The notes under the pieces: generated by a model
Databases searched by the model: none
Seen by the model: only the letters and a program-made list of their open reading frames with translations
Told to the model about the DNA's origin: nothing
Shown here: one piece after another, positions 6,831 through 60,540 of the stretch
How positions within the stretch are numbered: the stretch's first letter is position 1
Layout of the letters: every line of letters begins with the position of its first letter
Translations under genes and position numbers: made by a program
Source of the DNA: Petrosia ficiformis
Lineage: Eukaryota > Porifera > Demospongiae > Haplosclerida > Petrosiidae
Assembly: GCA_947044365.1 (NCBI GenBank)
Contig: OX345636.1
Location: forward strand, 59,027,537 to 59,091,536
Length of the DNA stretch: 64,000 bases
Direction of reading: 5' to 3'

Positions 6831-6929
6831 TATGAAAATACACCCCTTCATTTGGCTTCTAGAGAGAATTATGAAGATGTGGTAGATATATTATTGCGTC
6901 AAGGATCAAATCCTCATACAAGGAATAAA
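6831..6929 (+). CDS. ankyrin-repeat exon A (one complete 33-residue repeat)
   Basis: The exon is preceded by a pyrimidine-rich tract ending in AG at 6829-6830 and followed by the donor GTTAGT at 6930. It is exactly 99 nt and phase 0 at both ends, so it adds one 33-residue repeat without shifting the frame. The translation begins Y-E-N-T-P-L-H-L-A-S and carries V-V-D-I-L-L-R-Q-G-S-N, matching the ankyrin consensus (TPLH turn, second helix, G-A/S-N-loop). Ankyrin repeats bind protein partners; the partner is unknown. Flanking intron is almost identical to that around the exons at 21252 and 36255, but this exon matches the 21252 exon at only about 63 of 99 bases by my count. Of the three it is closest to the general ankyrin consensus. 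Other exons of the gene must lie upstream of the window. Confidence 0.88.
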
Positions 6930-8383
6930 GTTAGTTCTAATAACACACTATACTATAGTATTCATTATGTTATTGTACTAATTCCAGTGGTAATACATAT
7001 TTTCATTAGTAATTGAATTTTGGGATTATAAAGAAGGGCTAATCTACTACAGATCTGTGTTATAATATATAAATACCTTGTATGATATAACAGTGTCACA
7101 AGTATGATATTTACATGGAATATGATTTACATTAGTCTCTAGTAGTGTAATGTAAATGAATTAATTGTAAGTACTCTCTGACTTTTACCATTTTGATGAC
7201 ATAATGATTATAATTATTATCCTTTCCAAATACAAAATGACTTTCTTCCTACAAACAGTTTTCATGCGTGACTGAAAACTTTTCACCACAATGTACATGT
7301 GTGTACATGTACATGTAGTATTAGAATAATACTGTTTAATGTGGACATTTTTATATACACACAAAAACATGTTATAAATGTCTTGTTTTGGTATACATGT
7401 GGTTAATACGTATATATACAAGAATGTGTACACATGTGTCTAGTAATTAGTCTGGTGGCACTGCCCCTTCACTGGTAGGATGAAGGGTTTGGTACATACA
7501 TGTACATGTACATGTATGTTACCAGATTGCTCCATCTCAAACCACACTTTTATGAGCACCACATCAAAAGTAACAAATACAATCGTCAATAACTCACTAT
7601 TCAGCCATTTTGCACAGGAAGCCAATAAATAATAGTGGTATTATAGATAATAGTGGTAATATAGATAATAGTGGTAATGTTAGAGAAATGAGTAAATTTA
7701 CACAATCTACTAATGATTTCAGTTGTCCATTCATTGTTTACATCATGGATTAAGTTTATTATTCTATAGGTTTTGCTAGAGTTTACGATGATTCTAAAAT
7801 GTGATAGAATTACAGATATTGTTGTACACAAGTTGGGATAAATATTATTCCATTATTCTGGACTATTACCAGTATTACCTATAATACCACTATTATTTAT
7901 TATAAGATCTCTATGAATTAGTATCCTCTCTAGACGGCCACACCCCCACAGTGAAAAACAGTCTGGTAGCTTTGGTCAACATTCCTGGCACATGCAGTGA
8001 CATCCCATTCCTTGTATTTGTATTGTACATGTATAATCAGATTACTCAGTGTATTACATGTAATTGATCACATGACTGTGTGTATTTAAAAATGTCATAT
8101 CAAACTCCTGCAATGAAACAAATGGTAATAAAGGCTATATAGCATCCCAGATACCATCCTTCCTAATCTAATCAAACTTGTTTGGTCATGTGACTAACTT
8201 GTTGAAAGCACTAGTTATAACTGCGTGTAGAAATTATTAATTATATTATACTATTACATTCTTGTTTGAAACAAATTGTATCACAGTTTCCCCAGATGCT
8301 TCCTCATTTTATCAATATAATTATCAGCCATGCAAGACTATTATATACTATATACATTTAGTATGTATACAAGTACATCAGTA

Positions 8384-8597
8384 TTTTTGATAAGCTTATA
8401 TGGCGCACCATTGGCCCAAAGAGCTTCTTATTTGGCACTGCACAGTTCTCTATTTGGGCCAGTGGTGCAGTTAATTATGATTATATTGTCAGTAACAGAA
8501 TTAACTCTTTGTTACTCGGCTCAAGATGTATTCTCAATGGCACACACACTAACCATTGTTGAGCCAATTTGGCCCATGCTTCAAAACTTATCAAAAA
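8384..8597. mobile_element. 214-bp MITE with TTTTTGATAAG ends
   Basis: The ends are TTTTTGATAAGCTT and AACTTATCAAAAA. The interior holds GGCGCACCATTGGCCC and GCCAATTTGGCCCATGC in opposite orientations. Further copies: 23502-23715, 40626-40840, 47100-47314 (inverted), and diverged ones at about 10455-10672, 25546-25745 and 27835-28040. The open frames overlapping these copies are not genes. Confidence 0.6.
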
Positions 8598-9829
8598 CTG
8601 TGAAGTACATGTGTATGTATTAATTTACAGCCTATAAAGGAATTAGTCTCAATGTAAGTACTCTCTGTCTGTTACCATTTTGGTGACATAATCCTTTCCA
8701 AATATATTGGATAAACACTTCATGAGATTCATGAAGAAAAATGACCTTCTTAGTTTCCATGCATGACTTAAAACTTTTAATAGAAGTTTATATTTCATAC
8801 CACCATATAAACATTATGTGTACATGTAGGTAGTATTTTAATACAGACATGTTTATATACACATAAAAACCAGTTATAAATGTCTCGTTTTGGTGTATAT
8901 GTGGGTAACATGTACAGTAGTCCTCAATAAAATGTTCACGTAGCATTGTTGTAGTACACAAGTAGTACTCTACACTCCATAAAACACTGAAAGAGCATAT
9001 TATTATGCATACTACACTTAATGAAATAATAAACAGCAGTGACATTTGAGCTCCACCTTCTACTACTAACTAACTCTTTACCTCTACATATACATGTATA
9101 ACTCTCCCATTTTATATAACTAGAGTCTGTAACTTACATGTACTTTGGTGGAAAGAAGTGTTGTTAAGTAAGCTACACATGTATAGATCTTAAATGTATA
9201 TATGATGCACTATCAGCAGGAAGATAGCAAGGCAGGTGCTTAAAAGTTTAGTAGTCTAAAGGGCAACACCCACACCTTTGCTTATACCTGTGTAACTTCA
9301 CATTTTACACAACACAGACTTCTAACTTCCTTAATTAGACAGGGGAGCTTCTAACAAAGTCGTAGATACCAAATACATGTATATGTACATGTACATGCTT
9401 CGTTAGTCAGAGGAAAGCAACAAAGCAAGTGTTTGAAATAGCAGTGGTCAGTGCCAACAGTCATGAGGCTAATGTGCTATGCGTTTTACATATAATTATG
9501 TACATATTATAATTAAAATGTTGCCGTAATTAATATAGTGGAACATACTTAGTGCATACGTACTACAGAAGGGTCTGGGACATACATGTACATGTACATG
9601 TATATTACCAGATTACTCAACCTCAAACCACACTCTTATAAGCTCCACCTCACATGTAACAAATACAATGTTCAATGTACTGTAAATGGGGAGGGTATAA
9701 AACCCGGAATAGAATGAAACTGAATGTGGAATGGAACGGAACCGAACCGAACTGGAAGTTGATAACTATTATTATATGTTTGGTAATCGAATTTAATATG
9801 TAATTTTAATATTATATCGTGCGCAATCG

Positions 9830-10040
9830 TACATGTGTACATGTATACTGTACATGTACATGTACTTCTTAACTGCATGTATAATAATTGTTACATGTAC
9901 ATACATGTACATGTACAATAATACATGTTCATACTATACGTCATCTTCATACTATAGTACATACGTAGTAGATGTACATGTATATACTGTGGTACTTCTA
10001 CATGTACATGTACATGTACAACTACAGTATATAATCTGTA
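9830..10040. repeat. ACATGT-rich cluster
   Basis: Runs of TACATG hexamers. Compared with the cassette 2 copy at 24935-25125, several runs differ in length by whole 6-nt units. Confidence 0.8.
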
Positions 10041-11124
10041 CTTAAAATTAAAAATTTGTGATATTTGAATTAAACATTGGCCACACCCACCATTAATTAA
10101 TTAAACGAATGCAAAATCTACAGACTCAGAGAATCCTAAAACTTTCATAAATGCTTTTGAAACATTTCTAAGATGTTCATGCATGTACTATTACTTGACT
10201 GTCTATTACTATCCCATGTCTGAGTTCACCCAACTACATGTTACATGCCATGCTTTGGCAACAAAATTAAATACCACTTACTCATAACAACCATACATAA
10301 GTAATAGATAGAGTAAAGGCAAAACACAAAGAAGTGATACTTACATGTACGTATGTATGTATGGTTGTTATATGGAAGTGGAATTTAATATTGTTGCCAA
10401 AACAAGGTACCATCCCCATCTTGTTCCTGTGCTTTTTCGGTTTTGATATATATCAGTGTTTATGAAAAGCTCATATGGCGCACCATTGACCCAAAGAGCT
10501 TCTTAATTATTTAGCACTGTACAGTTCTCTCTTTGAGCCACATGGTGCAATTAATTATGATTACATTGTCACTAACAGCTTTGTTAACTGGCTCAAGATG
10601 TTTCCAATGGCATAACACTCTAACCATTGTTGAGCCAATTTGGCCCAAGCTTCAAACTTATCAAACTCTCTCATCCCTACATACTCCATTTCATTTTTTA
10701 AAATGTTTTTATTATATATATAATATAATCACAATATAATAATTATTATTATAGTCAAGTATTGTCTACAATTATTTTCTTATCAGTAATTATTGTTCTA
10801 CACTGTGAGTGCATCATTAAAATAGTAAGGCCCTTAATTAATCCTTAGACAACTGTTATGGAATATACACAACAGTGTACATGTATGTGACATTTGGTAC
10901 CATACTGCATTCATGATCATGATGTAGCATTCCAAGTGTCATGTTTGTCCTCAGCAGCAAATCCAAGGAAGTCATGACAATTATTTGAGCTGAAAATAGA
11001 CTTAGACTGATTTTAATGGATATCCCCATTTGTTCAGCATTAATAAGGGCAGGACCACATTGATACTTGGGTTTTCATGCATTTGGGATATCTTGTTGAA
11101 TGAACTATGTACATGTACACTCTG

Positions 11125-11128
<4 letters not shown>

Positions 11129-11163
<35 letters not shown>
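11129..11163. repeat. TA dinucleotide microsatellite
   Basis: An uninterrupted TA run that is much shorter in the copies at 26192-26206 and 28486-28502. Confidence 0.9.
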
Positions 11164-11168
<5 letters not shown>

Positions 11169-11834
11169 TGTAGATGGTGTGAGACTATCAGTCTACATCC
11201 TCAAGATAGGAAACAAAATGACTGATGTAATGCATTAATTATCCTCTATCCATTTTAGTATATTGTACATGTCACTACAATGTCTCCATAAGTTACATGT
11301 ACTGTACAACCTCTTAAAAGCAGATGCACATGGTAAATTTGAAAATATTTTCAGTCGCTATTGATTTCATAGGCATAGCCAGACCTTTAGGATTGGATGG
11401 GCCAGGGAAAGCATAGATCGGCATGCAAAGCATGCCAAAACATTTTATCGTTAATAAATCCATGATAAGTGTGCTCTACCATTCGTGGCCAGGCAGACAA
11501 GTTGAGTTGGAGCTAGTTCAACTTTATTCTTGAGAGCATTCAAACTCTCTGATGTTCTCCGAGTGAAAAAACGATATTTATCACACAATAATTATAGTAC
11601 AATGTACCTTACACCACACCTCCCAATTATGTGAATAATATTGCCTGAGCCACAGCCCAGGCTGGCCCTGTGCTAGCTACACCTATCCTTGCAGTGACTA
11701 ACTCTCTAAAATAAGGACACCTTGCTATTATGTAAAGCAGTCAGAAATATACATGCCACAAATATTTTTTCTTAATTTATTGAAGGACAAAAAAATTTAA
11801 ACACAAAGCGAAAAACATCATCTGATCTTTCAAT

Positions 11835-12444
11835 ATGGTACCATTGGTGGCAGTCTATTGGAGAAAGAAGAGTAATCAAACATATACAGCAGTTTTCATC
11901 GCTGCCTTGCTAACGAAAAGAGTTTACCTTTTAGTATATATACTCAAGGACCTCGAATTTACAAGTTCTAGAGAGAGTTTAAAAGCATCACGAAAGATGC
12001 TGAAGAAACAAGGCAAAGGAGATCGTCCCCAGGCAGTAATGTCTTTATCTAATGAGGATATTGTAGCAAACTGGTGCACGGGGTGGTTCGAATCCAGAAC
12101 CTTTAATGCATACTGTATGGTTTCGGGTATATTACCACATTGGTATGCGAGGAAGGGATGAACCCAAAAAATATTGTTTTGGAGACTACACAATTTAGTC
12201 CACATCTGATGGAAGGAAATACATAGAATACACCAGTGAACAAGACACAAAAACAAGATCTTGAGAGCATGAATATGATCATCGCTCTTTCAAGCCCAAA
12301 ATGTGGGCTACTCCTGAATGTCCCAAGAGGTGTCCTGTAATCATTTTTGAGCATTTTATCCAAGACCGACCAGAAAGTACATGTACATGTATGTGCAAAC
12401 CAATGTCTCCATTTTACTTAGCCATCAACGGACTACTATTGGTT
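11835..12444 (+). pseudogene. Crypton-type (DUF3504) tyrosine recombinase relic, copy 1
   Basis: An open frame from 11835 encodes S-R-K-M-L-K-K-Q-G-K-G-D-R-P-Q-A, a motif typical of the DUF3504 / Crypton recombinase family. A frame change near 12140 leads to G-M-R-G-R-D-E-P, which contains the conserved catalytic-type arginine. The frame then continues through D-G-R-K-Y-I-E-Y, F-K-P-K-M-W-A-T-P and S-P-F-Y-L-A-I-N. Stops lie after the D-Y-T-I segment and after T-K-T-R-S. These enzymes are site-specific tyrosine recombinases of Crypton DNA transposons. The C-terminal catalytic part (second Arg, Tyr) is absent. Two in-frame ACATGT hexamers (12 nt, near 12378) are present here and not in copy 2. 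Confidence 0.72.
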
Positions 12445-12449
12445 GCAAA

Positions 12450-13150
12450 TAGTATAAGATAATGATTTTGCCTCTTTTTTGGGTAAATGTAATTGAAGGG
12501 GAAAGTATGTACTATTTTCAGACTTGCATGAGTTTTCTGGGATCCAGTAAACCCACACATGTACAATTGTACATGTATTCAAGAGGGTATTTGAAAGTGT
12601 AGCTTGTAGTATTTCTCTTCCTGAATGAATGTATATCTGATAGTGACATTACCCTCATGATAAGACATAAACAGACTGATTGTTATACATTAAACATCTT
12701 TCCTGATACAGTCCATAGACTATTCATAAATAAATCAAGTCTACCATTCTATTGTAAGCATTACTAGTATACAGTGTTCTGAACATGATTTTACTATTTG
12801 TGGTAAATGGATTAATTTATTAAAAGATTTAATAGGTGTGGCTAAGTTTCTTGAATCATGGCAAAAGTTAGTAGGAAAACGATGAGTGATAGTGATGTAG
12901 GCTTAATTCCAGAGCTGAAATGATGGACCAGGACCGCTACCAAAAAGCCTAGTGAGAACATACCCTGCTAGTATATTGTTTAATATATATGTATCTGTAC
13001 GTTATAAGCGAGAACACACGGTTAAGGAGGACAATTTTCAGTCCCAATTGGCCTCTTGCCAATCTTTGTAGTTAAAAACCATCATCCTTTTTGAATAAAT
13101 TATAAGTACTGTGTACCTTACTGAACTGTCCATTCAACAATAAACTGTTA
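12450..13150. repeat. dispersed block, one of four copies
   Basis: Contains GATAGTGACATTACCCTCATG, AATCAAGTCTACCATTCTATTG and GCCTAGTGAGAACATACCCTG. Other copies are at about 3840-4390, 16440-17230 and 30150-30820. It has no coding potential that I recognise; it may be an old transposon or simply duplicated intron. Confidence 0.7.
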
Positions 13151-14339
13151 ACACTACAATTTAATGGGTTCTGTCTTCATGTAACCATTGTGTGATTATG
13201 TCATCATAATAATTATCATAACATTATTCTATACAGTATCATTGTTAGTATTGGGTGTGGTTTTATATTTTATAGAATCAAATGTGTTTCTATTTATAGT
13301 AGTGAATGGTTACATGAACAAACTGTCAGTTAATATCTCATTTGTAATTTATAATGTATGGATTGCCATCTTTTCAAGCTATCCTCTGAATTAATTCACA
13401 TATTCTATAATCAATACATTTTCAGTGGTCCTAATGGTGTGGATGTTCCATTGTATATTGTGTTATATTTGGTGTTTATTATGTTAATTATGTTAGTGGA
13501 ATTAGGAACTGATAGGCACATTGATTTAAAAAATGGCACTCTAACTTTGTAATGATATTCATAACTTTTATTAATTTTTAAAAACATATTTTGACAGCAT
13601 AGTTTCCCCAGTATATATAGTATTGCATATCGCTGCCAAAAATATTGTGATACGATATATTTGAAATAACTACATGTACATGTAGGTGAATGCAGGGTAT
13701 TGAAAGTAAGTGTTAGCACTGAGCAGTTATATAATTCCATGGTGATGGTGGTAGGTTGCATTATTGAGATTTAAAAGGCTGTTTCACAGTGACATATATA
13801 CATGTACATGTATATCCAATAAGGTTGTGTACTGGCAGTCTCTTATGCTATTGTCTTCACAATTGAATGCTATACAGGTGTTTTCTACTCAGTCGCTAAC
13901 AAATGCAGCCCAGAAGAATTTGAGATGCTCAGCGCTATCTCTCTCTGTATGCATATAATATTATAATTATGTAGCTCTGACTTCAAGTAGTCTTGTTGTA
14001 GGTCTTCTTCTCATGATGTCATATCTCTTCATTGAGATTCACACGTATGTATTTTTACAGGTGTATGTTTATTATGATCGATAATATAAAAAGCATACCG
14101 TACATGTACATGTAAATACACAATGTAAAGAGAATATAAATTATTATCGTCAATAATATAAAATGCATTTACAGACAAACACACTTGACTTATTAGGTTA
14201 AGGTCACTAATGCTCACAATAATAGTAGTATTTATAATATATTTATATTTCATTAATCATGTGTGAATAGAATACTTTGAAATGGCTATATTTAGTTTCA
14301 GCTATTAAACAATTCTGTTTGTTTAATTCACTATGTACA

Positions 14340-14660
14340 TGTGTATATGAATAAAATAATAGAGTCAAATTATACTTTCACATGTGACCTATACTTTCAA
14401 ATGAAATAAGTAATGAATCTGTATAGGTGAGCATATCCTATTGTCACTATAAAACTATCATGATATCACAGAATCCTTGACTTGTTACTACAAATGCAAT
14501 CAAAATGTGGAAGGCTACATCACTTGAATGATAAAATCATAGATTTTCATAGCTTAATTAATAGTTTTTACAAAGCAGCTGACTATTAAAATAACATGTT
14601 CATGTAGTTTGGTGGTTATAGTATTACTTGCTTATCCATGTGTACTGTAATAAACTATTA
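14340..14660. repeat. inverted copy of 2880-3190
   Basis: TACTTTCACATGTGACCTATAC and GAATCTGTATAGGTGAGCAT here are the reverse complements of sequence at about 3090-3150. The similarity is high but interrupted. Confidence 0.7.
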
Positions 14661-14831
14661 CTGTAGAGTGTAGAATCATTCTTGGTATATGTACATCTAA
14701 TATGTACTATAGTAAGAATATGACCTATAGTATTAACATGTACCTATTATACATGTATGTAGATACAACAAAGATTTGTACTGATGGGATAGCATTATAA
14801 TTATAAGTCAAACTTGTAAATTGTAATGGAA

Positions 14832-14876
14832 TAATTTCATTACTTATTTCATTACTTATTTCATTACTCTCATTAC
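14832..14876. repeat. short tandem repeat, TTTCATTACTTA units
   Basis: Three consecutive TTTCATTACTTA-type units followed by CTCATTAC. Confidence 0.7.
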
Positions 14877-15169
14877 AATATATAAGTTTGATCACATGAC
14901 TGTGTATTCAAAAATGTCACATCTAAATCCTGCAATAAAACAAACTGTAACAAAGGCTATATAGCATCCCAGATACACATGTACAGGGTGTATATACCAT
15001 CCTTCTACAACCTTCTAATCTAATCAAACTTGTTTGGTCATGTGACTAACTTGTTGAAATATTTGACAGAAATTATGTAATAATAGAAAAGAAATTAATA
15101 ATAGATTATATAATTATTACATGCATGCATATATAATTTATATAAATGAATATCAGCGCATTGTCCCCC

Positions 15170-15660
15170 CTTGCCATCTTCTGGCCAACATTCCTACTAC
15201 AGTGACGTTTATTATCTAGGTCTTGTAATGTCCAATCTGATTGCTCAGTTTATTAATTGATCATATATATGACTTGGTATATTCCAAAAGGGCATATCAA
15301 AATTAATTAACAAGCTATAGCGAGGGCTGTGAAGTGTCCTGGATGCCAACCTTCTACCATCATCTGGAGACTGTGATTCACCACGGTAATAACAAAGATT
15401 CAAATACATGTCAATCAGGTGACATTCACCTGATTATGATATCAATGCATCAGGAATGTTTACCCAAGTTACCAGACTGTGTTTCGCCGTGGCGCATGTC
15501 AGTCTGTAGACGAGACTAGCCACCATTGGAGACTGTGCTTCACCACAGATGTGACATACATAGATTAGTAATACACATAGATGGAGCGAATCAGGTGACT
15601 GATTATGACATCACTGATGATGCGCGCAGCTGTTAACTTGCGTCTAATCAGCACTGTACA
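15170..15660. repeat. dispersed repeat with AATCAGGTGA segments
   Basis: Contains GAGACTGTG and GACGAGACTAGCCA segments followed by AATCAGGTGA...TCACCTGATTATGA. A related copy is at 31480-31700, and parts of the start resemble 7930-8000 and 22640-22700. No coding region was recognised. Confidence 0.55.
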
Positions 15661-15829
15661 TGCACTTACATGTACTTCTTGTACATACTTGTATTAGATG
15701 TTCATACTGTAGTACATGTACATATACACACTATGATATTGTTATAATATTTATATAGATTGCCGATATAAATTTGGGGTGGGACTGGAGCCTCCCTTTT
15801 TTCTTCTCCTGTACTTGTGCTATACATAC

Positions 15830-16130
15830 ATTATAAGATACATGTACATGTACATGTTCATACTGTATGTATATTAGTACTTACATGTATACTTGTTATA
15901 ATGCTTGTTGATTATAATACATGTACATGTACCATGTATAATACAGTAACATGTACATACATGTACATGTAGTACATTTACATACATGTACATACAGTGT
16001 ATACTGTAATACATGTATATAGTACATATGCTATTGTACATTTTGTAACTAGAATACATGTACATGTACATACATGTACAATAATTCATGTTAATACTAT
16101 AAATCATTTTCTTACTATACTACATTCATG
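15830..16130. repeat. ACATGT-rich cluster
   Basis: Collinear with 2500-2820, but with many hexamer-length differences. Confidence 0.75.
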
Positions 16131-16136
16131 TACATA

Positions 16137-16280
16137 GCAACTCTCATTTTTCATTTTTTCATTGTCTCAGGTGTCTGTCTTTCTTTCTTTCTTTCTTTCT
16201 TTCTTTCAGATAACATATGTATTAGATGTACATAGGATAGTGCATGTACATGTACGTACATGTACATGATATTATCAGGA

Positions 16281-16320
<40 letters not shown>

Positions 16321-16357
16321 CACCTGAGGCAATGGAAAAATGAAAAATGAGAGTTGC
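16137..16357. mobile_element. foldback element with CTTT/AAAG arms
   Basis: The left arm GCAACTCTCATTTTTCATT... followed by CTCAGGTGTC and a CTTT run is matched in inverse order by an AAAG run, GACACCTGAGG and AATGAGAGTTGC. The arms are about 70-90 nt with a loop of about 50-60 nt, so a long hairpin is possible. A single arm (AAAG run plus GACACCTGAGGC) occurs at 27270-27338. Confidence 0.7.
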
Positions 16358-18099: not shown

Positions 18100-18290
18100 A
18101 ACATTTTATGGCCCGTAAGGCCATCCCTATGATTGCTTTCCCATGGGTTCGATGTATGCAAACATAATTATATATATATATATATATTCCGGGTACTCAA
18201 GCGCTCGGTCAATTAATAGGCGTGGCACGTAAAAGTACACGCACTCGAGCTCTACAGACCAGCAGAAAAAAAACTGTGTAGCTTACTTAG
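18100..18290. repeat. dispersed repeat with ATGGCCCGTAAGGCCATCCC
   Basis: Related copies lie at 65-215 (+) and about 39780-40010 (inverted). Common parts are the GGGCCAT/ATGGCCC start, GCTTTCC(C/G), an AT tract and TCGGTCAATTAA. The ends are not clear enough to name a transposon class. Confidence 0.6.
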
Positions 18291-18473
18291 GAACTGGAAC
18301 TAATAGCTAGCTATTCTTTCTAAAAGTTCTACAAGGTCCTTTAAAAGGTAAACAGAGTATACATGTAGATAATCAAAATAATAAGGCTGATGTGTTTCAG
18401 GCACGATAAAAGTGTATGAAACGTTTTACCTAAGTCATTTCAGTGGGTGTGGTCAATTATTTTATGTTCTTAA

Positions 18474-19504: not shown

Positions 19505-19766
19505 TTAACTAAGTTGTTATGTATTCTAGTAAAGAAGTAAAGAGAATTTAGTTGAATCAGCTGTACTTTCAAATCATAGGCTATTGTTGTTAATTCAGTT
19601 TCATCGATTTGTGGACAAGCAGTGCATGATTTCATTCCGGGGCCCTACTTTTCAATCTAATTCATTATCTTATCAATACAATGAAACTTTCATAATGTAA
19701 ATGCCATCAGGAAAGTTTTGAAAGGGCTTATATGATGGTCCAGACAATTAGGTACCTTATAAGGGC

Positions 19767-20093: not shown

Positions 20094-21251
20094 AAGGGCA
20101 TTATTAAGTGTAGCTTCTGATTTTATAATAGTGATGTGGTAGTTCATTACATTTGTTTATCACATCAGTTCAGTTTGACTAACTTCGTTTGTATCTATTC
20201 TGAAGGAGGAGAGCACATGCAACTCAAATTGACCTTAATATAAAATAGTTATGAATTAATTCAAATAATTGAATATAGGACAAATTTTCCCCAAAAATAA
20301 TTCAATCCAATGTTTATCTTTAATCACTTGCTTTTATGCCATTTTATACAATAACATTTGTTATCAGGAAGAGCTATTATTAATCTCCTTACATGTATAT
20401 ACTGAATTTCATTAATTTCCAGTACAAATGGTGGACTTATGAGCTAATTATTAATTTGATAAAAATTATTTTACAGGAAAGTGTCCTTTTCCAAACATTA
20501 GATCACATGTTGTATGCTATCATGTACATATATATTTTGTGGAAAACACTTTTTCTACATAAGATATACATGCTCCACACATGTATACACATGCTTTAGT
20601 AATTCCTAAGAAGTTTTGTGATAATAACAATTAAACAATGATTACCATACCCTTCCGCCTACTCTTCGCAGTGAGGGTAACAACAATACACATACATAAC
20701 CACTATTAATTAATTTATATTCACATGTCACCTGAAATAATTGGAACAGAGTGTTTGTATAAATGTAGCATTGTTAAGTAAATTCTTAGCTTGATACACC
20801 TACTATTATTATACTATATATAAGAGAACAACTACATTTTGTATTTAGTAATAACAACTATTGATCTTCCAGATAATAAATTCTATCATCTTTTATAATT
20901 AATAATGAACATTTTAATAATAATCATTTGTTTTATGTAGATATTCTCTTTTGTATACATTATACACATGTATCATGTACTTTTATATCTTCATTGTATC
21001 TAATTCAGATTATAAAGAGTATCACCATACCATTGTGTATACTTACATAATCTTGTTTGAATTCTCATTAGTTTATATATTATAATTCAGTTACATTCCT
21101 CCCTACTTAATCAACATGATGTTAAATGTAGTATCCTATCAAGACACTAAATTGTTTAATATAATTATGATTAGTAAATGAGTCATGCATTTCTAATATG
21201 AATTGATTGTACAAATTCTAAAGAATTACTTTTATTATTTCTTTTACATAG

Positions 21252-21350
21252 GATGGATGGACACCTACTCATAAGGCTGCTTTTTACAACAGTGTAGATG
21301 CACTATCTGCACTAATACGTCATGGATCAAATCTAGATACACGGAATAAT
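21252..21350 (+). CDS. ankyrin-repeat exon B (one complete 33-residue repeat)
   Basis: A 99-nt phase 0-0 exon with acceptor AG at 21250-21251 and donor GTTAGT from 21351. The translation starts D-G-W-T-P-T-H-K-A-A and continues with V-D-A-L-S-A-L-I-R-H-G-S-N-L, a clear ankyrin repeat. It is the second member of the tandem exon series and lies 14,421 nt downstream of exon A. It differs from exon C (36255) at 12 bases by my count, 9 of them changing amino acids, while the adjoining introns are nearly unchanged. Function beyond protein binding cannot be told. Confidence 0.9.
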
Positions 21351-23501: not shown

Positions 23502-23715
23502 TTTTTGATAAGCTTATATGGCGCAACATTGGCCCAAAGAGCTTCTTATTTGGCGCTGCACAGTTCTCTATTTGGGCCAGTGGTGCAGTTAATTATGATT
23601 ATATTGTCAGTAACAGCATTAACTCTTTGTTACTCGGCTCAAGATGTATTCTCAATGGCACACACACTAACCATTGTTGAGCCAATTTGGCCCATGCTTC
23701 AAAACTTATCAAAAA
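23502..23715. mobile_element. MITE with TTTTTGATAAG ends, cassette 2 copy
   Basis: Nearly identical to 8384-8597 and in the same cassette position, so it duplicated along with the cassette. Confidence 0.6.
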
Positions 23716-26700: not shown

Positions 26701-27189
26701 ACATACTAGTGTATAGCTCCAATAATTAATCGAGGGCAAAAAGTTTCGTGATATATATTATATATTTTTAATTTCGTAAAACATTATTGGTTACAATTGT
26801 GGTTATACAAGCCACACCCACCTGATTTGAAAGTGTTATGATGGACAATGTTTCATTTGTATCTGGTTCTTATATATGAGCTTATCCAAACACTGATGTT
26901 CAATATATTGTATTATCAGTACCTGACATTATTAAGTTCACATACTATCACTGTACTTACAGTGTACTTTGTGAGTGAAGTACAATGTACTTCAAATGTA
27001 CTACACCATATTTGACATACAAATGTAATGGGAATTAACACACAACTACGATTACAGTACAAAGTATGTAGTACAAATATATATTATTATACATGTACCA
27101 CTTAGAAGTGCAGTTGACTATCACCTTATTAAAGTGTAGCTCCCATCATAGTATATAAAGTCAAGTACTATACATTTTGATAGTGTAAT

Positions 27190-27500
27190 ACTTGTAGTAT
27201 ACATGTATGTACATGTACATGTAGATACAGTAATGTACATTGTACATGTACATGATGTTATTGGAGATGTAGAAAGAAAGAAAGAAAGAAAGAAAGACAC
27301 CTGAGGCAAATGGAAAAATGAACATGAGAGTTGCCACATGTACGTGTACATGTACATGTAGTATGTATAATACTTGTACATGTACATAACAATAATGTTC
27401 ATGTACATTGTACATGTACATGTAGGTTGCATGTACATGTATTATACATTTACATGTACAATTGTACATACAAGTACGTGTACTGTAATTAATACACATG
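27190..27500. repeat. ACATGT-rich cluster with single CTTT-foldback arm
   Basis: Long runs of TACATG with an AAAG run and GACACCTGAGGCAAATGG at 27270-27318. The overlapping minus-strand open frames are not genes. Confidence 0.75.
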
Positions 27501-28858
27501 TACATGTGTACATACTATTATGTGTATACTGTACATGTACTTCTTCACTATAATTATTACACCTACATACGTGTACAATAATACATGTTAATACTATACA
27601 TGTACGTCATCTTCATACTATAGTACATATTAGATGTACATGTATATATACTATGGTACTTCTACATGTACATGTACAACTACAGTAAAACACAAAGAAG
27701 CGATATTTACATGTATGCATGTACATGTATGGTTGCTATATGGAAGTGGAATTTAATTTTGTTCCTAAAGCAAGGCACCATCCCAATCTTGTTCCTGTGC
27801 TTTTTTGGTTTATATATAATTTTATTATTATATCAGTGTTTCTGAAAAGGCACCATTGACCCAAAGAGCTTCTTAATTATTTAGCACTGTACAGTTCTCT
27901 CTTTGGGCCCACATGGTGCAGTTAATTATAATTACATTGTCACTAACAGCTATGTTAACTGGCTCAAGATGTTTCCAATGGCATAACACTCTAACCATTG
28001 TTGAGCCAATTTGGCCCAAGCTTCAAACTTATCAAACCTCAGATTTAAAAAAATGTTTTTATTATATATATAATATAATCACAATATAATAATTATTATT
28101 ATTGTCATGTATTGTCTATAATTATTTTCTTATCAGTAATTATTGTTCTGCACTGTGAGTGCATTCATTAAAATAGTAAGGCCCTTAATTAATCCTTAGA
28201 CAACTGTTATGGAATATACAACAGTGTACATGTATGTGACATTTGGTACCATACTGCATTCATGATCATGATGTAGCATTCCAAGTGTCATGTTTGTCTT
28301 CAGTAGCAAATCCTTATAAATTAAAGAAAGTCGTTACGATTATTTGAGCTGAAAATAGACTTAGACGGATTTTAATGGATATTCCCAATTGTTCAGCATT
28401 CATAAGGGGAGCACCACATTGATACTTCTGTTTTCATGCATTTGGGATATCTTCTTGAATGAACCATGTACATGTACACTCTGGATGTATATATATATAT
28501 ATGTACATGTAGATGGTGTGAGACTGTCAGTACCATCACGATAGGAGACAAAATGACTGATGTAATACATTAATTATCCTCTATCCATTTTAGTATATTG
28601 TACATGTCACTACAATGTCTCCATAAGTTACATGTACTGTACAACCTCTTAAAAGCAGATGCACATGGTAAATTTGAAAATATTTTCAGTCGCTATTGAT
28701 TTCATAGACGTAGCCAGACCTTTAGGATTGGATGGGCCAGGTAAAGCATAGATCGGCGAGCGAAGCATACTGAAACAAGTTAGCGTTGATAAATTCATAA
28801 TGGACATGGTCTATCGTTCGTGGCCAGGCAGACGAGTTGAGTTGAAACTACTTCAACT

Positions 28859-29162
28859 TAGGGATGGGCGATTATGAAAATAATTATGAATCAATTATTA
28901 TTATATGTGCAAGTATCACGATTATTGCCATTATTGGTTATCTTACATACAATGTACATGTATGTATGTAGATTCCATTGAACAATCAAATTGATACCTT
29001 TTATTAGTTTAGTAAACAGTGTTGAAAAACTGATTTAGATGTGATAGTACTGAAAACCTGAAGTTATGGCACAATAATCATTATTTTTTGTGACCACAAT
29101 ATGGCCAATATGATTATCACAGGAAATTTTCATCACGATTATCAAAATATTCCCCATCCCTA
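28859..29162. mobile_element. hAT MITE, 304 bp, target duplication CTTCAACT
   Basis: The ends are TAGGGATGGGCGATTATG and the inverse of TAGGGATGGGGAATATT. Perfect 8-bp duplication CTTCAACT at 28851-28858 and 29163-29170. A left-end-only copy of the same insertion lies at about 26578-26660, truncated on the right. Confidence 0.78.
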
Positions 29163-29539
29163 CTTCAACTGCATGACCCTAGTTGAATCTGCTGGTTCCA
29201 TCATCTTTAATACACATCTTCATAACTATATCCTTGAGAGCATTCAAACTCTCTGATGTTCTCTAAGTGAAAAAACGATATTTATCACACAATAATTATA
29301 GTAGCAATGTACCTTACACCACACCTACTAATTACATGATATATATTGCCTGAGCCACAGCCCAGGCTGGCCCTGTGCTAGCTACACCTATCCTTGCAGT
29401 GACTAACTCTCTAAAATAAGGACACCTTGCTATTATGTAAAGCAGTCAGAAATATACATGCCACAAATATTTTTTCTTAATTTATTGAAGGACAAAAAAA
29501 TTTAAACACAAAGCGAAAATCATCATCTGATCTTTCAAT

Positions 29540-30135
29540 ATGGTACCATTGGTGGCAGTCTATTGGAGAAAGAAGAGTAATCAAACATATACAGCAGTTT
29601 TCATCGCTACCTTGCTAACGAAAAGAATTTACCTTTTAGTATATATACTGAAGGACCTCGAATTTACAAGTTCTAGAGAGAGTTTAAAAGCAGCACGAAA
29701 GATGCTGAAGAAACAAGGCAAAGGAGATCGTCCCCAGGCAGTAATGTCTTTATCTAATGAGGATATTGTGGCAAACTGGTGCACGGGGCTGTTCGAATCC
29801 AGAACCTTTAATGCATGCTGTATGGTTTCTGGTATATTACCGCATGGGTATGCGAGGAAGGGATGAACCATAAAAATATTGTTTTGGAGACTTCACAATT
29901 CAGTCCACATCTGATGGAAGGAAATACATAGAATACACCAGTGAACAAGACACAAAAACAAGATCTTGAGAGCATGAATATGATCATCACACTTTCAAGC
30001 CCAAAATGTGGGCTACTCCTGAATGTCCCAAGAAGTGTCCTGTAATCATTTTTGAGCATTTTATCCAAGAACGACCAGAAAGTATATGCAAACCAATGTC
30101 TCCATTTTACTTGGCCATCAACGGACTACTATTGG
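29540..30135 (+). pseudogene. Crypton-type (DUF3504) tyrosine recombinase relic, copy 2
   Basis: Homologous to 11835-12444 throughout, with the same K-K-Q-G-K-G-D-R-P, M-G-M-R-G-R-D-E and P-F-Y-L-A-I-N motifs and a frame change near 29840. It has a stop after R-D-E-P that copy 1 lacks, and it reads through D-F-T-I-Q where copy 1 has a stop. Both share the stop in T-K-T-R-S. The relic was therefore already dead when the cassette duplicated and each copy decayed further on its own. Confidence 0.72.
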
Positions 30136-32039
30136 TTCCAAATGGTATACAGTGTAAGATAATGATTTTGGCCCTTTTTTGGTAAATGTATACAGACAAA
30201 ATAATGGAAATGTTGAAAGGGTGTCCTCCTTCCTTTGGATGGTTTAATTGAAGGGGAAAGTATGTACAGTACTATTTTTAGACTTGTATGAGTTTTCTGG
30301 GATCCAGTAAACCCACACATGTACATGTATTCAAGAGGGCATTTGAGAGAGTAGCTATAGTGTTTCTCTTCCTGAATGAATGTACATTCTGATAGTGACA
30401 TTACCCTTATGATAAGACACAAACAGACTGAATGTTATACATTAAACATCTTTCCTGATACAGTACATAGACTATTCATAAATAAATTAAGTCTACCATT
30501 CTATTGTAAGCATTACTAGTATACAGTGTTCTGAACAGGATTTTAGTATTTATGGTACATGGATTAATTTATTAAAAGATTTAGTAGGTGTGGCTAAGTT
30601 TCTTGAATCATGGCAAAAGTTAGTAGGAAAACGATGAGTAATAGTGATGTAGGCTTAATTCCAGAGCTGAAATGATGGACCAGGACCACCACTAAAAAGC
30701 CTAGTGAGAACATACCCTGCTAGTATATTGTCTAATATACATGTATCTGTATGTTACAAGCGAGAACACGCAATTAAGGAGGACAATTTTCAGTCCCAAT
30801 TGGCTTCTTGCCATCAGGAAAGTTTTGAAAGTGCTTATATGATGGTCCAGACAATTAGATACCTTATAAGGGCATTATTAAGTGTAGCTGCTGATTTTAT
30901 AATAGTGATGTGGTAGTTCATTACATTTGTTTATCACATCAGTTCAGTTTGACTAACTCCGTCTGTATCTATTCTGAAGGAGGAGAGCACATGCAACTCA
31001 AATTGACCTTAATATAAAATAGTTATGAATTAATTCAGATTATAGTAACACAAAGTGTGACTTGTATAATATACTATTTGTGATGTAATTTTCGAAAGAC
31101 ACATTTTCCCCAAAAATAATTATACAATAACATTTGTTATCAGGAAGAGCTAATATTAATCTTTTTAGATACTGAGTTTCATTAATTTCCAGTACAAATG
31201 GTGGACTTATGAGCTAATTATTAATTTGATCCAAATTATTTTGCAGGAAGTGTCCTTTTCCGAACATTAGATCACATGTTGTATGATAGTTATATTTCAT
31301 GTACATATATATTTTGTGGAACACACTTTTTCTACATAACATATACATGTAACTGCTCCGCACATGTATATACATGCTTTAATAATTCCTAAGAAGTTTT
31401 GTGATAATAACAATTAAACAATGATTACGATACCCTTCCGCCTACTCTTTGCAGCGAGGGTAACAACAGTACATAACCAGACTGTTTTTTGCCGTAGTGC
31501 TTGGAAGTCTGGAGACGAGACTAGCCACTATTGGAGACTGTGCCTCACTGCAGATAACATATAGATTGGAATATTTGTAATACACGTAGGTTGAGTGAAT
31601 CAGGTGACAATCACCTGATTATGACATCACTGATGATCATCAGGAATATTAGACAAATTTGGCAGACTTTTTTTCTCCATGGGGCATGGTAGTATGGGGA
31701 TAAGACTTTCTGTAAAAAATAGTCTCATATTAGAAGAACGCTGTGACATTGTTGGGCGAGCCTACATGATGGTGACAATACAACATGTGGTATTACTTAC
31801 ACAATTACATGTAAATAGAACATGTGGTATTACTTACAGCACATACAACATGTACATTTAGAGCGATTTCAGTAGCAACTTTCTAGTGTTGGACTCACTC
31901 AGGCTCATTCCAATTATTTGTACTTGTAACCCCATCATGACAACAGTTACAAGTATTACCACATGTTTTATGAACATGTATTAATGTGTATTAGTGATCA
32001 TATGATTATAAATATACATTTATATGTCTAAGTAAACTA

Positions 32040-32160
32040 TGAATGTAGTACATGTAGCATTGTACATGTACATGTATGTTTGATAACTATATTACATGTA
32101 CATACATGTTAATACTATAGTGCATACATGTATTATATATTCAGTACATGTACATACTAT
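32040..32160. repeat. ACATGT-rich cluster
   Basis: Several TACATG runs within otherwise unremarkable AT-rich sequence. Confidence 0.7.
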
Positions 32161-32269
32161 GGTAATGTTATAATATATAAATTGTTTTATACTTATATAT
32201 TCTGCTTTTTATGTTCCTGTTCAAATTACATGTAATATAAGTAATCAGTAACAATTAATAATTGCTTAA

Positions 32270-32911
32270 GGTGGCGGTACGGCGGAAGCAAGAAACCATA
32301 CAATTGCCCGTTAATTATATTCATACTTTATTCATGATATTCATTTTGTGGTTGCAGTACAATACTTGCGCATGCAGAACTGCGTTAAATATACATTCCT
32401 GTGGTATTATCTCTGCTATAATGAATCAAAGTCAGTGGGTTGTACTGAGGTACATTTTTCTCAGCTCTAATAATCGGTACAGCTCTGAAATTTTGAACAA
32501 ACGTTTGTTACACGTGTACCTACAAAACAACGAAGCAATTTTTTCAATAGCGAAGCACTTTGTCGAGAAATTTGTCGAAGAAGGATGATGATATACAACC
32601 CCTGTGGTACAGAAACAGATATAAGGAAAAGGTCTTCGTTGTTTTTTAGACTAGGATGTATTCACTTTGCACAGTAAGTGTCCAGTCTTTGTCTTGTGTG
32701 TTTATGGAGAAAAATGTACCTTTGTGGCTGGTTCTGCTGACGATCATAACTCATGAATACAACATACAAAATACTTCAAATTTTCACTGATAATAAACTT
32801 CAATAAAATAATATTGTGTTGCAAATATGAAAATGATTTAAGAAATTGTAACAATGAAAAAAACAAAAAAACTTTTGCTATGAATATCATAAACGTCACC
32901 ATACCGCCACC
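32270..32911. mobile_element. TTAA-flanked TIR element with GGTGGCGGTA ends
   Basis: The ends are GGTGGCGGTACGG and CCATACCGCCACC (one mismatch in 13), each bordered by TTAA (32266-32269 and 32912-32915). A TTAA target fits piggyBac or Kolobok; the GG start fits Kolobok-like ends better, but this is a guess. The 108-codon open frame at 32262-32588 starts across the border and has no recognised domain. Confidence 0.65.
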
Positions 32912-33954
32912 TTAAGGTAAGAATATTGAAAGAATACTTCAGTTTCATTAAAGATCTGTGTACCTAGACTACAGTTGCATGCACTTTGTAAATTTGGGGT
33001 GGGACTGTAGCCTCCCTGTTTTCTTCTCTTGTCCATAGGAATACATTTTTTCTCTGTATATGACTATATTGATTTTCTTTATTATTACTATGAAAATCAA
33101 AACATGTGAAACAGTTTATAAAAGTATCAAACATAATGTCAATTGAAATGTATTGATGGCCATTTTTTGCAAGCCATCCTACATACATGTACAGTACATG
33201 TAGATGGTAGTACCATTATTACTGTAGTGTGTACATTTACATGTACTACATGTGGATGTATTATAGTAATATAAGTACTAATATGTATGTATGTATATTA
33301 TACATACAGTATGAACATGTACAGTAGTCCTCAATAATAAGTTCACATAGCATTGTTGTAGTACACAAGTAGTACTCTACACTCCATGAAACACAGAAAG
33401 AGCATATTATTATGCATACTACACTTAATAAAATAATGAACAGCAGTGACATTTGAGCTCCACCTTCTACTACTAACTAACTAAAGGGCAACACCCACAC
33501 CTTTGCTTATACCTGTATAACTTCACATTTTACACAACACAGACTTCTAACTTCCTTAATTAGACAGGGGAGCTTCTAACAAAGTCGTAGATACCAAATA
33601 CATGTACCTGTACATGTACATGTACATGCTTCGTTAGTCAGAGGAAAGCAACAAAGCGAGTGTTTGAAATAGCAGTGGTCAGTGCCAACAGCCATGAGGC
33701 TAATGTGCTATGTGTTGTACATATATGTACATATTAAAATTAAAATGTTGCTGTAATTAACATGGTGGAACATACTTAGTACATACATGTACGTACTACA
33801 ATAACACTGTGTGAACTTTTTATTGAGGGCTACTATATACAAGAATGTGTACACATATATGTGTCTAGTAATTACATGTAGTCTGATGGCATTGCCTCTT
33901 CACTGGTAGGAGGAAGGGTCTGGGACATGCATGTACATGTACATTAGCGGACAC

Positions 33955-34100
33955 CTCCCAATAGCGGACACCTCTCTAAGACAGACACTTTCTTGCAGTC
34001 CCAAACACACTTCCATAGATGCCCATAGATTGGAACCCTCTAAAATACGGACACCTCGCTATTCCGTATACTGGACACATATCACGCCCGCATTGATATT
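33955..34100. repeat. GCGGACACC-type dispersed repeat
   Basis: AGCGGACACCTC is repeated, followed by CTCTAAAATACGGACACCTC. Diverged relatives (CTCTAAAATAAGGACACCTTG) occur at 607-640, 11704-11735 and 29407-29440, and a weaker one at 4370-4400. Confidence 0.6.
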
Positions 34101-34173
34101 ATAAGATACGAAAACCACTCTATATTGCCATTTAATTTCCTTAATAAGCATGAGCAAAATGCAACAGTTCATG

Positions 34174-34337
34174 CAGGGGTGTGGAAATAGTGAGCCAATT
34201 GCCAGACATTCTGGCTTGTTTTCACTACTCTTGTCCTGCTCCCCATGTACTTTGTATACAGTTCAGTTTTAATTTACCGGACATTCACTAGATTAATCGG
34301 ACAATGTCCTGCATGACTGGGTGTTTCCACACCCCTG
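34174..34337. mobile_element. hAT MITE, 164 bp, target duplication AGTTCATG
   Basis: The inverted ends CAGGGGTGTGGAAA and TTTCCACACCCCTG match exactly over 14 nt. Perfect 8-bp duplication AGTTCATG at 34166-34173 and 34338-34345. The paralogous site near 4530-4545 has the target once and no element. Confidence 0.88.
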
Positions 34338-34764
34338 AGTTCATGAGTTGGTTTTGGTTTTAGAGCAACAGGAACTCACAAAACTAGTACAACTAGTACA
34401 ACTAGTACAACTATACTCCAAAAATACTTTAGATGAAACACTTCCTTCAATTGCTCATTTAATAACATTTGGTATCAGGAAGAGCTATTATTAATCTTCT
34501 TAGATACTGAATTTCAGTACAAAATAGTAGACTTACGTATGAGCTATTAACATTAATTTGATCAAATTGTTTTACAGGAAAGTGTCCCTTTTCAAAATTA
34601 GGTCACATATTGCATGGTAGTTATATTTCATGTACATATATATACATGCTTTTTCTACATAAGCTATAACTATTCCTCTACATGTAATCACATATACACA
34701 TAGTCACACACATGCTTTTATTGCTTTAACAATTCCTAAGAAATTTTGGGATAATAATCAAATA

Positions 34765-35115
34765 TGGGTTCACTTACAATTACAATTGTAATTGAGGTCA
34801 ATTACAATTACAATTATGTAGTTGTAATTGTACTGTAATTGAAACATTTGTATTGAGGGTATTTTTAATCATAAGGACATTCGGCATTCTATACCAAATT
34901 ATTAAAATGTAATGGTTATTATACATGTAGACACTTTCATTTTAGAATTTATGCTACCGGCTTAGAGGTATTACTGTAATTATATTGTAATTGCATGCGA
35001 CTGTACATGTAATTGTAGTTGAATGTCACATAATTGTAATTGTAATTAACCAGTGGTAGCTACACTGACAATAATTGAAGCTGTAATTGTAATTGGCCTT
35101 TTGTAATTGAACCCA
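34765..35115. mobile_element. MITE with TGGGTTCA ends and ATTACAATT repeats, copy 2
   Basis: Same ends and interior as 5881-6240 with a few substitutions and small deletions, and in the same cassette position. Confidence 0.65.
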
Positions 35116-35623
35116 GACCTGGTACACATACATGTAGATGTACATGTACATAACCCCACTATTAATTAATTTATATTCACATGTCACCTGAAATAATTGG
35201 AACAGAGTGTTTGTATAAATGTAGCATTGTTAAGTAAATTCTTAGCTTGAGACACCTACTATTATTCCACTTTATATAAGAGAACAACTACATTTTGTAT
35301 TTAGTAATAACAACTATTGATCTTCCAGATAATAAATTCTATCATCTTTTATAATTAATAATGAAGATTTTAATAATAATCATTTGTTTCATGTAGATAT
35401 TCTCTTTTGTATACATTATACACATGTATCATGTACTTTTATATCTTCATTGTATCTAATTCAGATTATAAAGAGTATCACCATACCATTGTGTATACTT
35501 ACATAATCTTGTTTGAATTCTCATTAGTTTATATATTATAATTCAGTTACATTCCTCCCTATTTAATCAACATGATGTTAAATGTAGTATCCTATCAAGA
35601 CACTGAATTGTTTAATATAATTA

Positions 35624-35660
35624 ACCCGAGCGCGTAGGCGGAGGGTTATAGTAGTCTTCT

Positions 35661-35692
<32 letters not shown>

Positions 35693-36167
35693 TGTGTGTT
35701 ACCGCTTGATCTCCGCAACTGCAAGGTCTTAGTGTATTCTGAGCATATCTGCAGAATACTAGTATAGTGAAAGGTAAGAAATAAAAGTGATTTGTTCTGA
35801 ACTAGTCATGTAGCAGAGAAACAGCCGTGCAAATACTCGTCGATCTGTCGCCATCTTGAAATTTTATTGTTTTTGCTGATGTCAGCAGGAAACACTGAAC
35901 ACTAACTTTTGTCTCTTTGAAGTTTTGTTTCTTAGGCTTTGTCTATCGTCCTAACGAGTGTTTATACAGCTATTTGTGAAGTTTTGTCCAGAAATTCGCT
36001 AGTTCTCAAGAGATCTCATGGCCATGCTATCTCCATAATTTGCATATTCATGATGTACTACTGAATGGGGGTGTTCCTGGCTGTTGCAATAGGTTACTTA
36101 GGCAAAGTTGTTCTAAAGCCATGCTGTTTTTGCAAGCTAGCGAGGGTTCTGCACTTTAGTGCATTCA
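35624..36167. mobile_element. 544-bp insertion unique to cassette copy 3
   Basis: Copies 1 and 2 read through TATAATTATGATTAG. Here ACCCGAGCGCGTAGGCGG ... AGTGCATTCA is inserted with TTA on both sides (35621-35623 and 36168-36170). It contains a TG dinucleotide run (35662-35691). The start resembles, on the other strand, the ACCCTTCCGCCTACTC fragments at 20650 and 31430. I see no inverted ends, so the class is unknown. Confidence 0.65.
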
Positions 36168-36254
36168 TTATGATTAGTAATTGAGTCATGCATTTCTAAT
36201 ATGAATTGATTGTACAAATTCTAAAGAATTACTTTTATTATTTCTTTTACATAG

Positions 36255-36353
36255 TATGGACGGACACCTACTCATCAGGCTGCTATTAACAACAGTGTAG
36301 ATACACTATCTGCACTAATACGTCATGGATCAAAATTGGACACACAGGATAAT
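36255..36353 (+). CDS. ankyrin-repeat exon C (one complete 33-residue repeat)
   Basis: A 99-nt phase 0-0 exon with acceptor AG at 36253-36254 and donor GTTAGT at 36354. The translation starts Y-G-R-T-P-T-H-Q-A-A and continues V-D-T-L-S-A-L-I-R-H-G-S-K-L, again a full ankyrin repeat. It lies 15,003 nt after exon B in the same intronic surroundings. Relative to exon B the changed residues are 1, 3, 8, 11, 12, 17, 27, 31 and 32 of the exon. In standard ankyrin numbering five of these are positions 3, 5, 13, 14 and 33, the positions that line the target-binding face. Confidence 0.9.
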
Positions 36354-60515: not shown

Positions 60516-60540
60516 CATATCAGGAGCCCAGAATGATGTT

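Follow-up and report, generated by a model that had tools for sequence, protein, structure and literature searches.

A clustered ankyrin-repeat gene family of the sponge Petrosia ficiformis varies mainly at predicted contact codons between closely similar introns

Introduction

How animals without antibodies tell many microbes, or conspecifics, apart is still unsettled, and little is known at the molecular level of what underlies allorecognition and symbiont tolerance in sponges. Here we analyse a stretch of 64,000 nucleotides (the window; chr1:59,027,537-59,091,536, a single assembled haplotype) of the stone sponge Petrosia ficiformis, which contains ankyrin-repeat exons of a predicted ankyrin-kinase gene. 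This locus belongs to a large multigene family clustered on chr1 (about 50.9-61.9 Mb). Copies of this family keep their scaffold codons and nearby introns alike, and their predicted contact codons change mainly at amino-acid-changing sites.

Gene model and predicted protein

The gene model reads, in order, as ankyrin exons N1, N2, A, B, C and D, a linker, a coiled coil and a putative tyrosine kinase-like (TKL-like) kinase (Table 1). Exon phases appear consistent, being 0 through the repeats and 1 at the D-linker and linker-last exon junctions; the donor of D was provisionally set at GTAAAA to match phase 1 of the following exon, and the coiled coil was assigned by reading, without a predictor. 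Since the 99-base cassettes read as phase 0, skipping of a cassette would preserve the frame. A scan of 12.6 kb upstream of N1 for ankyrin-like frames only did not find the gene start. Two open frames at chr1:59,014,788-59,015,967, upstream of N1, which overlap in different reading frames, resemble what we take to be a retroelement reverse transcriptase.

When joined, the repeats N1-N2-A-B-C-D match PF00023 at 121.3 bits and PF12796 at 130.4 bits (above cut-off), and the kinase domain matches PF00069 at 125.8 bits (Pkinase E 2.7e-36) and PF07714 at 101.1 bits. Ankyrin and protein kinase were the only Pfam families above cut-off in the exons read, and no NACHT/NB-ARC (NOD) domain was found in these exons, the only sequence searched for it. 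The kinase carries the catalytic motifs GRGGWGEV, VAVK and HRDVSSANVLL, with DYG replacing DFG. The nearest solved structures include CTR1, plant receptor-like kinases, IRAK4, RAF and TAK1, and the predicted TKL-like group was placed by nearest matches, without a tree. When proteins were searched with the joined repeats, the matches listed (120 of 466) were all distant ankyrin proteins at 25-39% identity, so that no annotated close relative was found among them. For the kinase, 5,807 relatives were found at E <= 0.001 among 7,991 scored, and one of the 120 listed has a name.

The D-linker intron contains a minisatellite of about 8.4 kb (48801-57246), with 12- and 18-base spacing and 2,810 codons open in one frame. 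The window also holds a simple tandem repeat (59909-60558) with several frames open on both strands and runs like LVLLVLLV or SNTSNT, and a repeated 111-codon open frame (11826-12158 and 29531-29863) whose copies are almost the same and might be part of a mobile element.

Table 1 Features of the gene model and of the introns beside exons A, B and C. Positions are those of the window unless given as chr1 coordinates.
Feature	Position	Strand	Description
Exon N1	chr1:59,020,177-59,020,272		Ankyrin exon, upstream of the window; profile search and reading
Exon N2	about chr1:59,026,488-59,026,577		Ankyrin exon, upstream of the window; profile search and reading
Intron block 5' of A	6266..6817	+	Almost identical to the block 5' of B
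Exon A	6831..6929	+	99 nucleotides, single 33-codon ankyrin repeat YENTPLHLASRENYEDVVDILLRQGSNPHTRNK, phase 0, class A
Intron block 3' of A	6930..7174	+	Almost identical to the blocks 3' of B and C
Intron block 5' of B	20693..21244	+	From self-comparison
Exon B	21252..21350	+	99 nucleotides, single 33-codon ankyrin repeat DGWTPTHKAAFYNSVDALSALIRHGSNLDTRNN, phase 0, class BC
Intron block adjoining C	36167..36254	+	More distal part displaced to 34464-35623
Exon C	36255..36353	+	99 nucleotides, single 33-codon ankyrin repeat YGRTPTHQAAINNSVDTLSALIRHGSKLDTQDN, phase 0, class BC
Exon D	46759..46837	+	Final (capping) ankyrin repeat KGETALDLAKRFQKEECVQLLEQTM...
Linker exon	61402..61470	+	DIKSDISEQDEPNVKKPDETIP; probably phase 1 at both ends, from the reading frame
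Last exon, start	63716..64000	+	Putative coiled coil; runs beyond the window into the predicted protein kinase domain, stop near chr1:59,092,621

Exons A, B and C and their introns

Comparison of the window with itself reveals three similar blocks, each with one exon (A, B or C). Exons A and B share 63 of 99 bases and differ at 36, A and C differ at 40, and B and C differ at 12, comprising nine amino-acid-changing and three silent differences. The changed codons between B and C are exon codons 1, 3, 8, 11, 12, 17, 27, 31 and 32; with exon codon n corresponding to n+2 in ankyrin numbering (Ank), these become Ank 3, 5, 10, 13, 14, 19, 29 and 33, plus position 1 of the next repeat. At the protein level 24 of 33 residues are identical between B and C, and fewer between A and B. 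A preliminary description of this DNA had given the same A/B and B/C counts and the same ankyrin positions, all of which proved exact, and had stated that the introns beside the three exons differ by a few percent. This is borne out, with mismatches of 0-5.6%: 7 of 474 aligned bases upstream (1.5%) and 13 of 234 downstream (5.6%) for A/B, 1 of 68 upstream and 8 of 236 downstream (3.4%) for B/C, and 0 of 62 upstream and 9 of 238 downstream (3.8%) for A/C. The alikeness is local, extending over hundreds of bases, and upstream of C an insertion-like stretch of about 540 additional bases breaks it (5581-6740 corresponds to 34464-35623, and similarity resumes with 6737-7232 versus 36167-36652). Between A and B, similarity begins to fall before the exon is reached, inside the final 20 bases of the upstream intron. 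Within the exon, differences are denser over the first 66 bases (30 differences) than over the last 33 (6 differences).

Two readings based on these three exons were rejected. Taken alone, B versus C does not amount to positive selection, the divergence at amino-acid-changing (dN) and silent (dS) sites being 0.133 and 0.131, so that dN/dS is 1.0. Likewise, the contrast between exons A and B is not evidence for selection alone, because their silent sites have also diverged (dS 0.36; 0.36-0.53 for the A versus BC lineages in the window). This silent divergence therefore points to old exon lineages within introns that were apparently kept alike by recombination.

The family across the genome

In genome searches the A cassette had at least 42 matches, C at least 40, N1 at least 40 and D at least 45, including secondary ones; the candidates scored were 40 of 119, 40 of 178, 40 of 59 and 40 of 53, respectively. 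The coiled-coil exon has 19 matches at 10 places, and the kinase is present at >=95% DNA identity at a minimum of 10 places (40 of 105 candidates scored). A pattern of exon end and donor gave 119 genome matches versus 9 for the reversed control pattern, so that some 9 of the 119 may be chance matches. We examined 100 of these 119 matches; the sequence read contained 106 pattern places, six of which were one unrelated sequence with stops and without an ankyrin match and were dropped. None of the resulting 100 cassettes with an ankyrin exon has a stop, and 99 have an AG acceptor; the search pattern demands a near-normal donor, so that donor integrity is partly preselected, but the first 76 exon bases are not. 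The one departure, at chr1:59,910,503, has ATAA instead of the AG acceptor and so may be skipped. There are 89 distinct exon sequences and 87 distinct peptides among the 100 cassettes, which were grouped into class A (n=36) and class BC (n=51, with a main flank cluster of 37); 13 cassettes of other types fall outside the class statistics.

Nearly all cassettes (95 of 100) lie within chr1 50.9-52.8 Mb (16 cassettes, all on the - strand) and 55.7-61.9 Mb (79 cassettes, 78 on the + strand), and the five outlying ones at chr1 2.4-2.7 and 37.4 Mb and on contig 18. Far from the main cluster, at chr1:2.40, 2.63 and 2.72 Mb, lie three ankyrin exons that are almost identical and have a donor beginning in common. 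The chromosome itself, at 63 Mb, makes up a third of the assembly, the next being 16 Mb. Along the + strand at least 36 gene units start with N1; 13 of them have one cassette, 10 have two, seven have three, two have four, two have five, one has six and one has none. Because position alone defined the borders and the lists have gaps, some of the long units may be two genes.

With a region this repetitive, collapsed or duplicated repeats that were mis-joined during assembly could make introns look alike, a possibility the preliminary description had named as a potential refutation. Such an artefact is hardly credible given the HiFi reads, the Hi-C scaffolding and the quality value of 62.8; moreover, the copies differ inside their exons (89 distinct in 100), the unit order N1-cassettes-D recurs, and copying errors would render the exons alike too.

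Divergence of exons and flanks, and the codons that vary

For class A (n=36), divergence is 2.6% in the flanks, 13.0% at silent exon sites (pS) and 16.6% at amino-acid-changing exon sites (pN). The corresponding values for the main flank cluster of class BC (37 of 51 cassettes) are 2.2%, 4.0% and 10.0%. Bootstrap intervals of pN-flank, pN-pS and pS-flank all lie above 0 in both groups, so that the excess of exon over intron divergence proposed earlier is upheld. The alikeness of the introns ends within a short distance: across 30 three-kb BC loci, diversity is 0.2-0.3 beyond about 400 bases 3' of the exon start. Pairs with flanks within 1.2% and yet at least five amino-acid differences number 116 of 1,275 in BC and 33 of 630 in A, and one pair of cassettes 2.5 Mb apart has no differences in 334 flank bases and 10 in the 99-base exon.

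The differences are concentrated at particular codons. As putative contact positions we used those randomised in designed ankyrin repeat proteins (DARPins), which we take to be positions 2, 3, 5, 13, 14 and 33, so far as each exon holds them. At the putative contact codons of the two main groups (36 and 37 cassettes), 32-38% of amino-acid-changing sites differ versus 5-12% of silent ones; for Ank 3, 5, 13, 14 and 33 in the BC main cluster (n=37), pN is 31.5% and pS 4.6%. Mean pN at the DARPin positions relative to the remaining codons is 2.9-fold in A and 5.3-fold in BC (Ank 3, 5, 13, 14, 33; A n=36, BC n=51), 4.6-fold in D (Ank 3, 5, 13, 14) and 2.0-fold in N1 (Ank 5, 13, 14, 33). Random codon draws reach this enrichment 74 (A), 31 (BC), 24 (D) and 1010 (N1) times in 20,000, and with Ank 10 added to the set 5, 0, 102 and 986 times. 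Exon D, a separate exon class with 21 copies, thus follows the same rule, with a contact pN of 45% versus a pS of 26% (all D comparisons are based on the first 75 exon bases). N1 had been considered as a neutral control exon and was rejected as such, as it varies at contact positions too; nor does it support an omega (dN/dS) above 1.

Variation in class BC is centred on Ank 3 (with 11 residues), 5, 10 (8 residues), 13, 14 and 30, and 14 of the 33 codons are without any amino-acid change. Diversity at codon positions 1, 2 and 3 of Ank 3, 5, 10, 13 and 14 is 0.49, 0.35 and 0.15 in BC and 0.53, 0.44 and 0.16 in A, versus 0.06, 0.03 and 0.04 (BC) and 0.17, 0.08 and 0.11 (A) at the other codons; flank diversity, for comparison, is 0.022-0.026. 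Changes that peak in the exon, at positions 1 and 2 of a small number of codons, might also be expected from exon-targeted hypermutation, for example by a deaminase or a templated diversity-generating process, for which selection would be unneeded. We regard this as very improbable: all four bases occur at the variable positions and the adjoining scaffold codons are almost fixed in BC (as judged by inspection, with no formal motif test and no template search), and to our knowledge only selection respects codon phase like this.

Codon models and control arrays

The codon models M0, M1a and M2a were implemented for this analysis and applied to distinct exons only (31 A, 46 BC), with one FastTree topology each. 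Under M0, omega is 1.0 in both classes. M2a improves on M1a by 108.2 in BC (twice the log-likelihood difference), with an omega of 13.1 for 21% of codons and sites Ank 3, 5, 10, 13, 14 and 30, and by 40.8 in A, with an omega of 5.1 for 9% of codons and sites Ank 3, 10 and 14. Averaging therefore masks two regimes, with most codons at an omega of about 0.1-0.16 or 1 and a contact-position class at about 5-13. The contrast between pN, pS and flanks is tree-free and independent of these models.

As controls we used other ankyrin arrays on chr7, where four of eight loci were testable and the other four had fewer than six recognised repeats. At Ank 3, 5, 10, 13 and 14 the controls have pN/pS of 0.84-1.05, even though variability there too is higher at these positions than elsewhere in the repeat; the same codons give 0.454/0.090 in A and 0.367/0.073 in BC, a ratio of about 5 each (based on 36 A and 51 BC cassettes). 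This comparison is limited by the greater divergence of the control repeats, whose mean identity is 76-86%. Restricting it to pairs at least 85% identical gives a pN/pS of 7.4 in A (from 224 pairs) and 5.1 in BC (from 1,238), and of 1.48 (22 pairs), 1.44 (24), 0.75 (62) and 0.57 (5) in the four controls. The control arrays belong to a separate ankyrin expansion on chr7, at about 0.97-1.73 and 5.89-6.89 Mb, with very long open frames of up to 3,088 codons.

These controls bear directly on an account without diversifying selection, in which gene conversion homogenises the introns, the exons are old paralogues and the contact positions are merely unconstrained surface. Such an account would accommodate the silent divergence of A and B beside intron divergence of 1.5-5.6%, the excess of pS over flank divergence (slight in BC), the near equality of pN and pS at the contact codons of N1, and the weak relation between exon and flank distances described below. 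However, unconstrained sites should give pN near pS, as they do in the chr7 arrays, and not the ratio of about 5 and the omega of 5-13 found in A and BC. The chr7 ratios near 1 therefore indicate that the excess in A and BC is not the product of an unconstrained surface. Age by itself cannot lift pN above pS either, and we consider an explanation without selection rather unlikely.

Exchange among copies

Upstream and downstream flank distances are almost unrelated (Mantel r 0.009 in BC and 0.071 in A), exon distance is uncorrelated with genomic distance (r 0.009 and -0.013), and the four-gamete condition is violated in 121 of 210 BC and 350 of 946 A site pairs, some of which may be recurrent mutation. 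Taken together, these results suggest that copies megabases apart exchange short stretches. Exon distances are weakly related to those of the upstream flank (Mantel r 0.11 and 0.13). Movement of whole exons is less well supported than exchange of short stretches, identical exons in flanks differing by at least 2% being found in 2 of 1,275 BC pairs (both within 14 kb) and in none of 630 A pairs. Exchange would account for introns that resemble one another and for the persistence of A and BC as two old exon lineages; selection is still required for pN above pS at the contact codons.

Interpretation and possible function

We favour, with a probability of roughly 0.7, a duplicated ankyrin family that is homogenised by exchange, has its binding face under positive selection and acts as a recognition receptor with a kinase. 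Duplication together with frequent ectopic exchange of short stretches, by gene conversion or unequal crossing over, would homogenise the family, and positive selection would create or preserve differences on the concave binding face. The protein could be an intracellular recognition receptor whose variable ankyrin face binds a changing ligand, candidates being a microbial or symbiont effector or an allogeneic self protein; the coiled coil would oligomerise and the kinase would signal. A possible role in immunity or self-recognition fits the predicted ankyrin-coiled-coil-kinase architecture, and the family resembles a recognition repertoire that is diversifying rapidly, in an animal from an early-branching lineage.

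Several results weigh against this interpretation. Because pS of the exons exceeds flank divergence in both A (13.0% versus 2.6%) and BC (4.0% versus 2.2%), part of the exon-flank contrast is due to exon age or exchange and not to selection. Contact enrichment was tested in the BC clusters of 37 and seven cassettes (smaller clusters of four, two and one were left out), and the cluster of seven, with 1.1% flank divergence, 1.2% pS and 3.9% pN, is without it (586 of 2000 draws). In N1 (21 copies) the enrichment is weak, overall pN is 15.0% versus a pS of 14.0%, and at its contact codons pN (26.6%) about equals pS (25.2%). Recombination breaks the tree assumption of M1a and M2a, so their nominal significance is inflated, and exon distances still correlate with those of the downstream flank (Mantel r 0.26 in BC, with 20 of 999 permutations as high, and 0.10 in A), an incomplete decoupling. 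This kinase was seen at the end of 8 of the 36 units. Finally, the B/C pair, from which the preliminary description had drawn its proposal of diversifying selection on a recognition surface, has a dN/dS of 1.0 and would not survive the limit which that description had itself set (refuted at 1 or less); support for the proposal comes instead from the family-wide data, where a class with omega above 1 falls at contact positions.

The same selected ankyrin surface might instead serve an ordinary fast-evolving interaction, for example with reproductive or cytoskeletal partners, and have no part in immunity or allorecognition. Although the sequence names no ligand, the size of the family and a TKL-like kinase on one member type would be more typical of recognition repertoires, and we think an ordinary interaction unlikely. 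A more far-reaching version of the favoured reading is a germline repertoire of phase-0 ankyrin exon cassettes, in which introns would act as recombination arms that swap cassettes or their parts among dozens of genes, placing up to six cassettes before a shared coiled-coil kinase and possibly more by alternative splicing, as an animal counterpart of fungal repeat receptors. This we regard as doubtful, its odds being reduced by the rarity of identical exons in differing flanks. The selection signal, carried by some six codons of each repeat across no fewer than 36 clustered gene units, predicts the binding face, and the family offers a case where alike introns and divergent exons help separate selection from homogenisation.

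Comparison with known systems

Snake venom phospholipase A2 and conotoxin genes, PRDM9 zinc fingers and the leucine-rich repeats of plant NOD-like receptors (NLRs) are cases in which exons evolve fast between conserved introns, or contact residues are positively selected within a conserved scaffold; all have other folds and other functions than the sponge family. Within sponges, so far as the accessible portions of the source go, expansions of NLR and scavenger receptor cysteine-rich (SRCR) genes form large receptor-like families, and kinases and ankyrin-repeat genes appear in microbe-responsive networks (PMC6208332). Those families use NACHT/LRR or scavenger domains, unlike the ankyrin-kinase family, and the same portions describe no ankyrin-kinase family with contact-site diversification (PMC6208332). 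Literature searches of titles and abstract starts, with subscription papers largely uncovered, met no description of the present family among the entries listed, and the genome note (PMC12648040) does not use the word "ankyrin" in its main text.

The sponge repeats can also be compared with engineered binders. According to the available text, six positions per repeat are randomised in DARPins, and the spacing of contact residues in DARPin G3 appears to fit positions 2, 3, 5, 13 and 14 (PMC3602593); DARPins bind via their concave face, as stated in the available part of a second article (PMC8229355). The variable positions of the sponge repeats coincide with the randomised ones. Unlike in these engineered libraries, Ank 10 is strongly variable in the sponge and lies outside the DARPin set.

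Fungal NLRs with ANK, WD or TPR repeats show, in the accessible part of the report, concerted evolution of repeats through exchange both inside and among family members, positive selection at a few positions of each repeat, mostly on the concave ankyrin face, and a link to non-self recognition (PMC4986451). The criterion used there asks that repeats of a single protein be more than 85% identical across 100 residues or more (PMC4986451). In the sponge, exons B and C fall short of this identity, with 24 of 33 residues in common. As in the fungal receptors so described, classes A and BC combine probable exchange among members with positive selection at contact positions; unlike there, N1 does not have pN above pS. 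In the fungal proteins, the same text indicates, the repeats follow NACHT/NB-ARC, whereas in the sponge one repeat per exon is set in long introns, the kinase is the sole output domain seen in the family, and the host is an animal. The Podospora hnwd paper reportedly adds a further case of a fungal repeat NLR. On this partial view of the literature, the fungal repeat-receptor system is the closest known case, and the sponge family may well work like it, without a claim to NLR membership.

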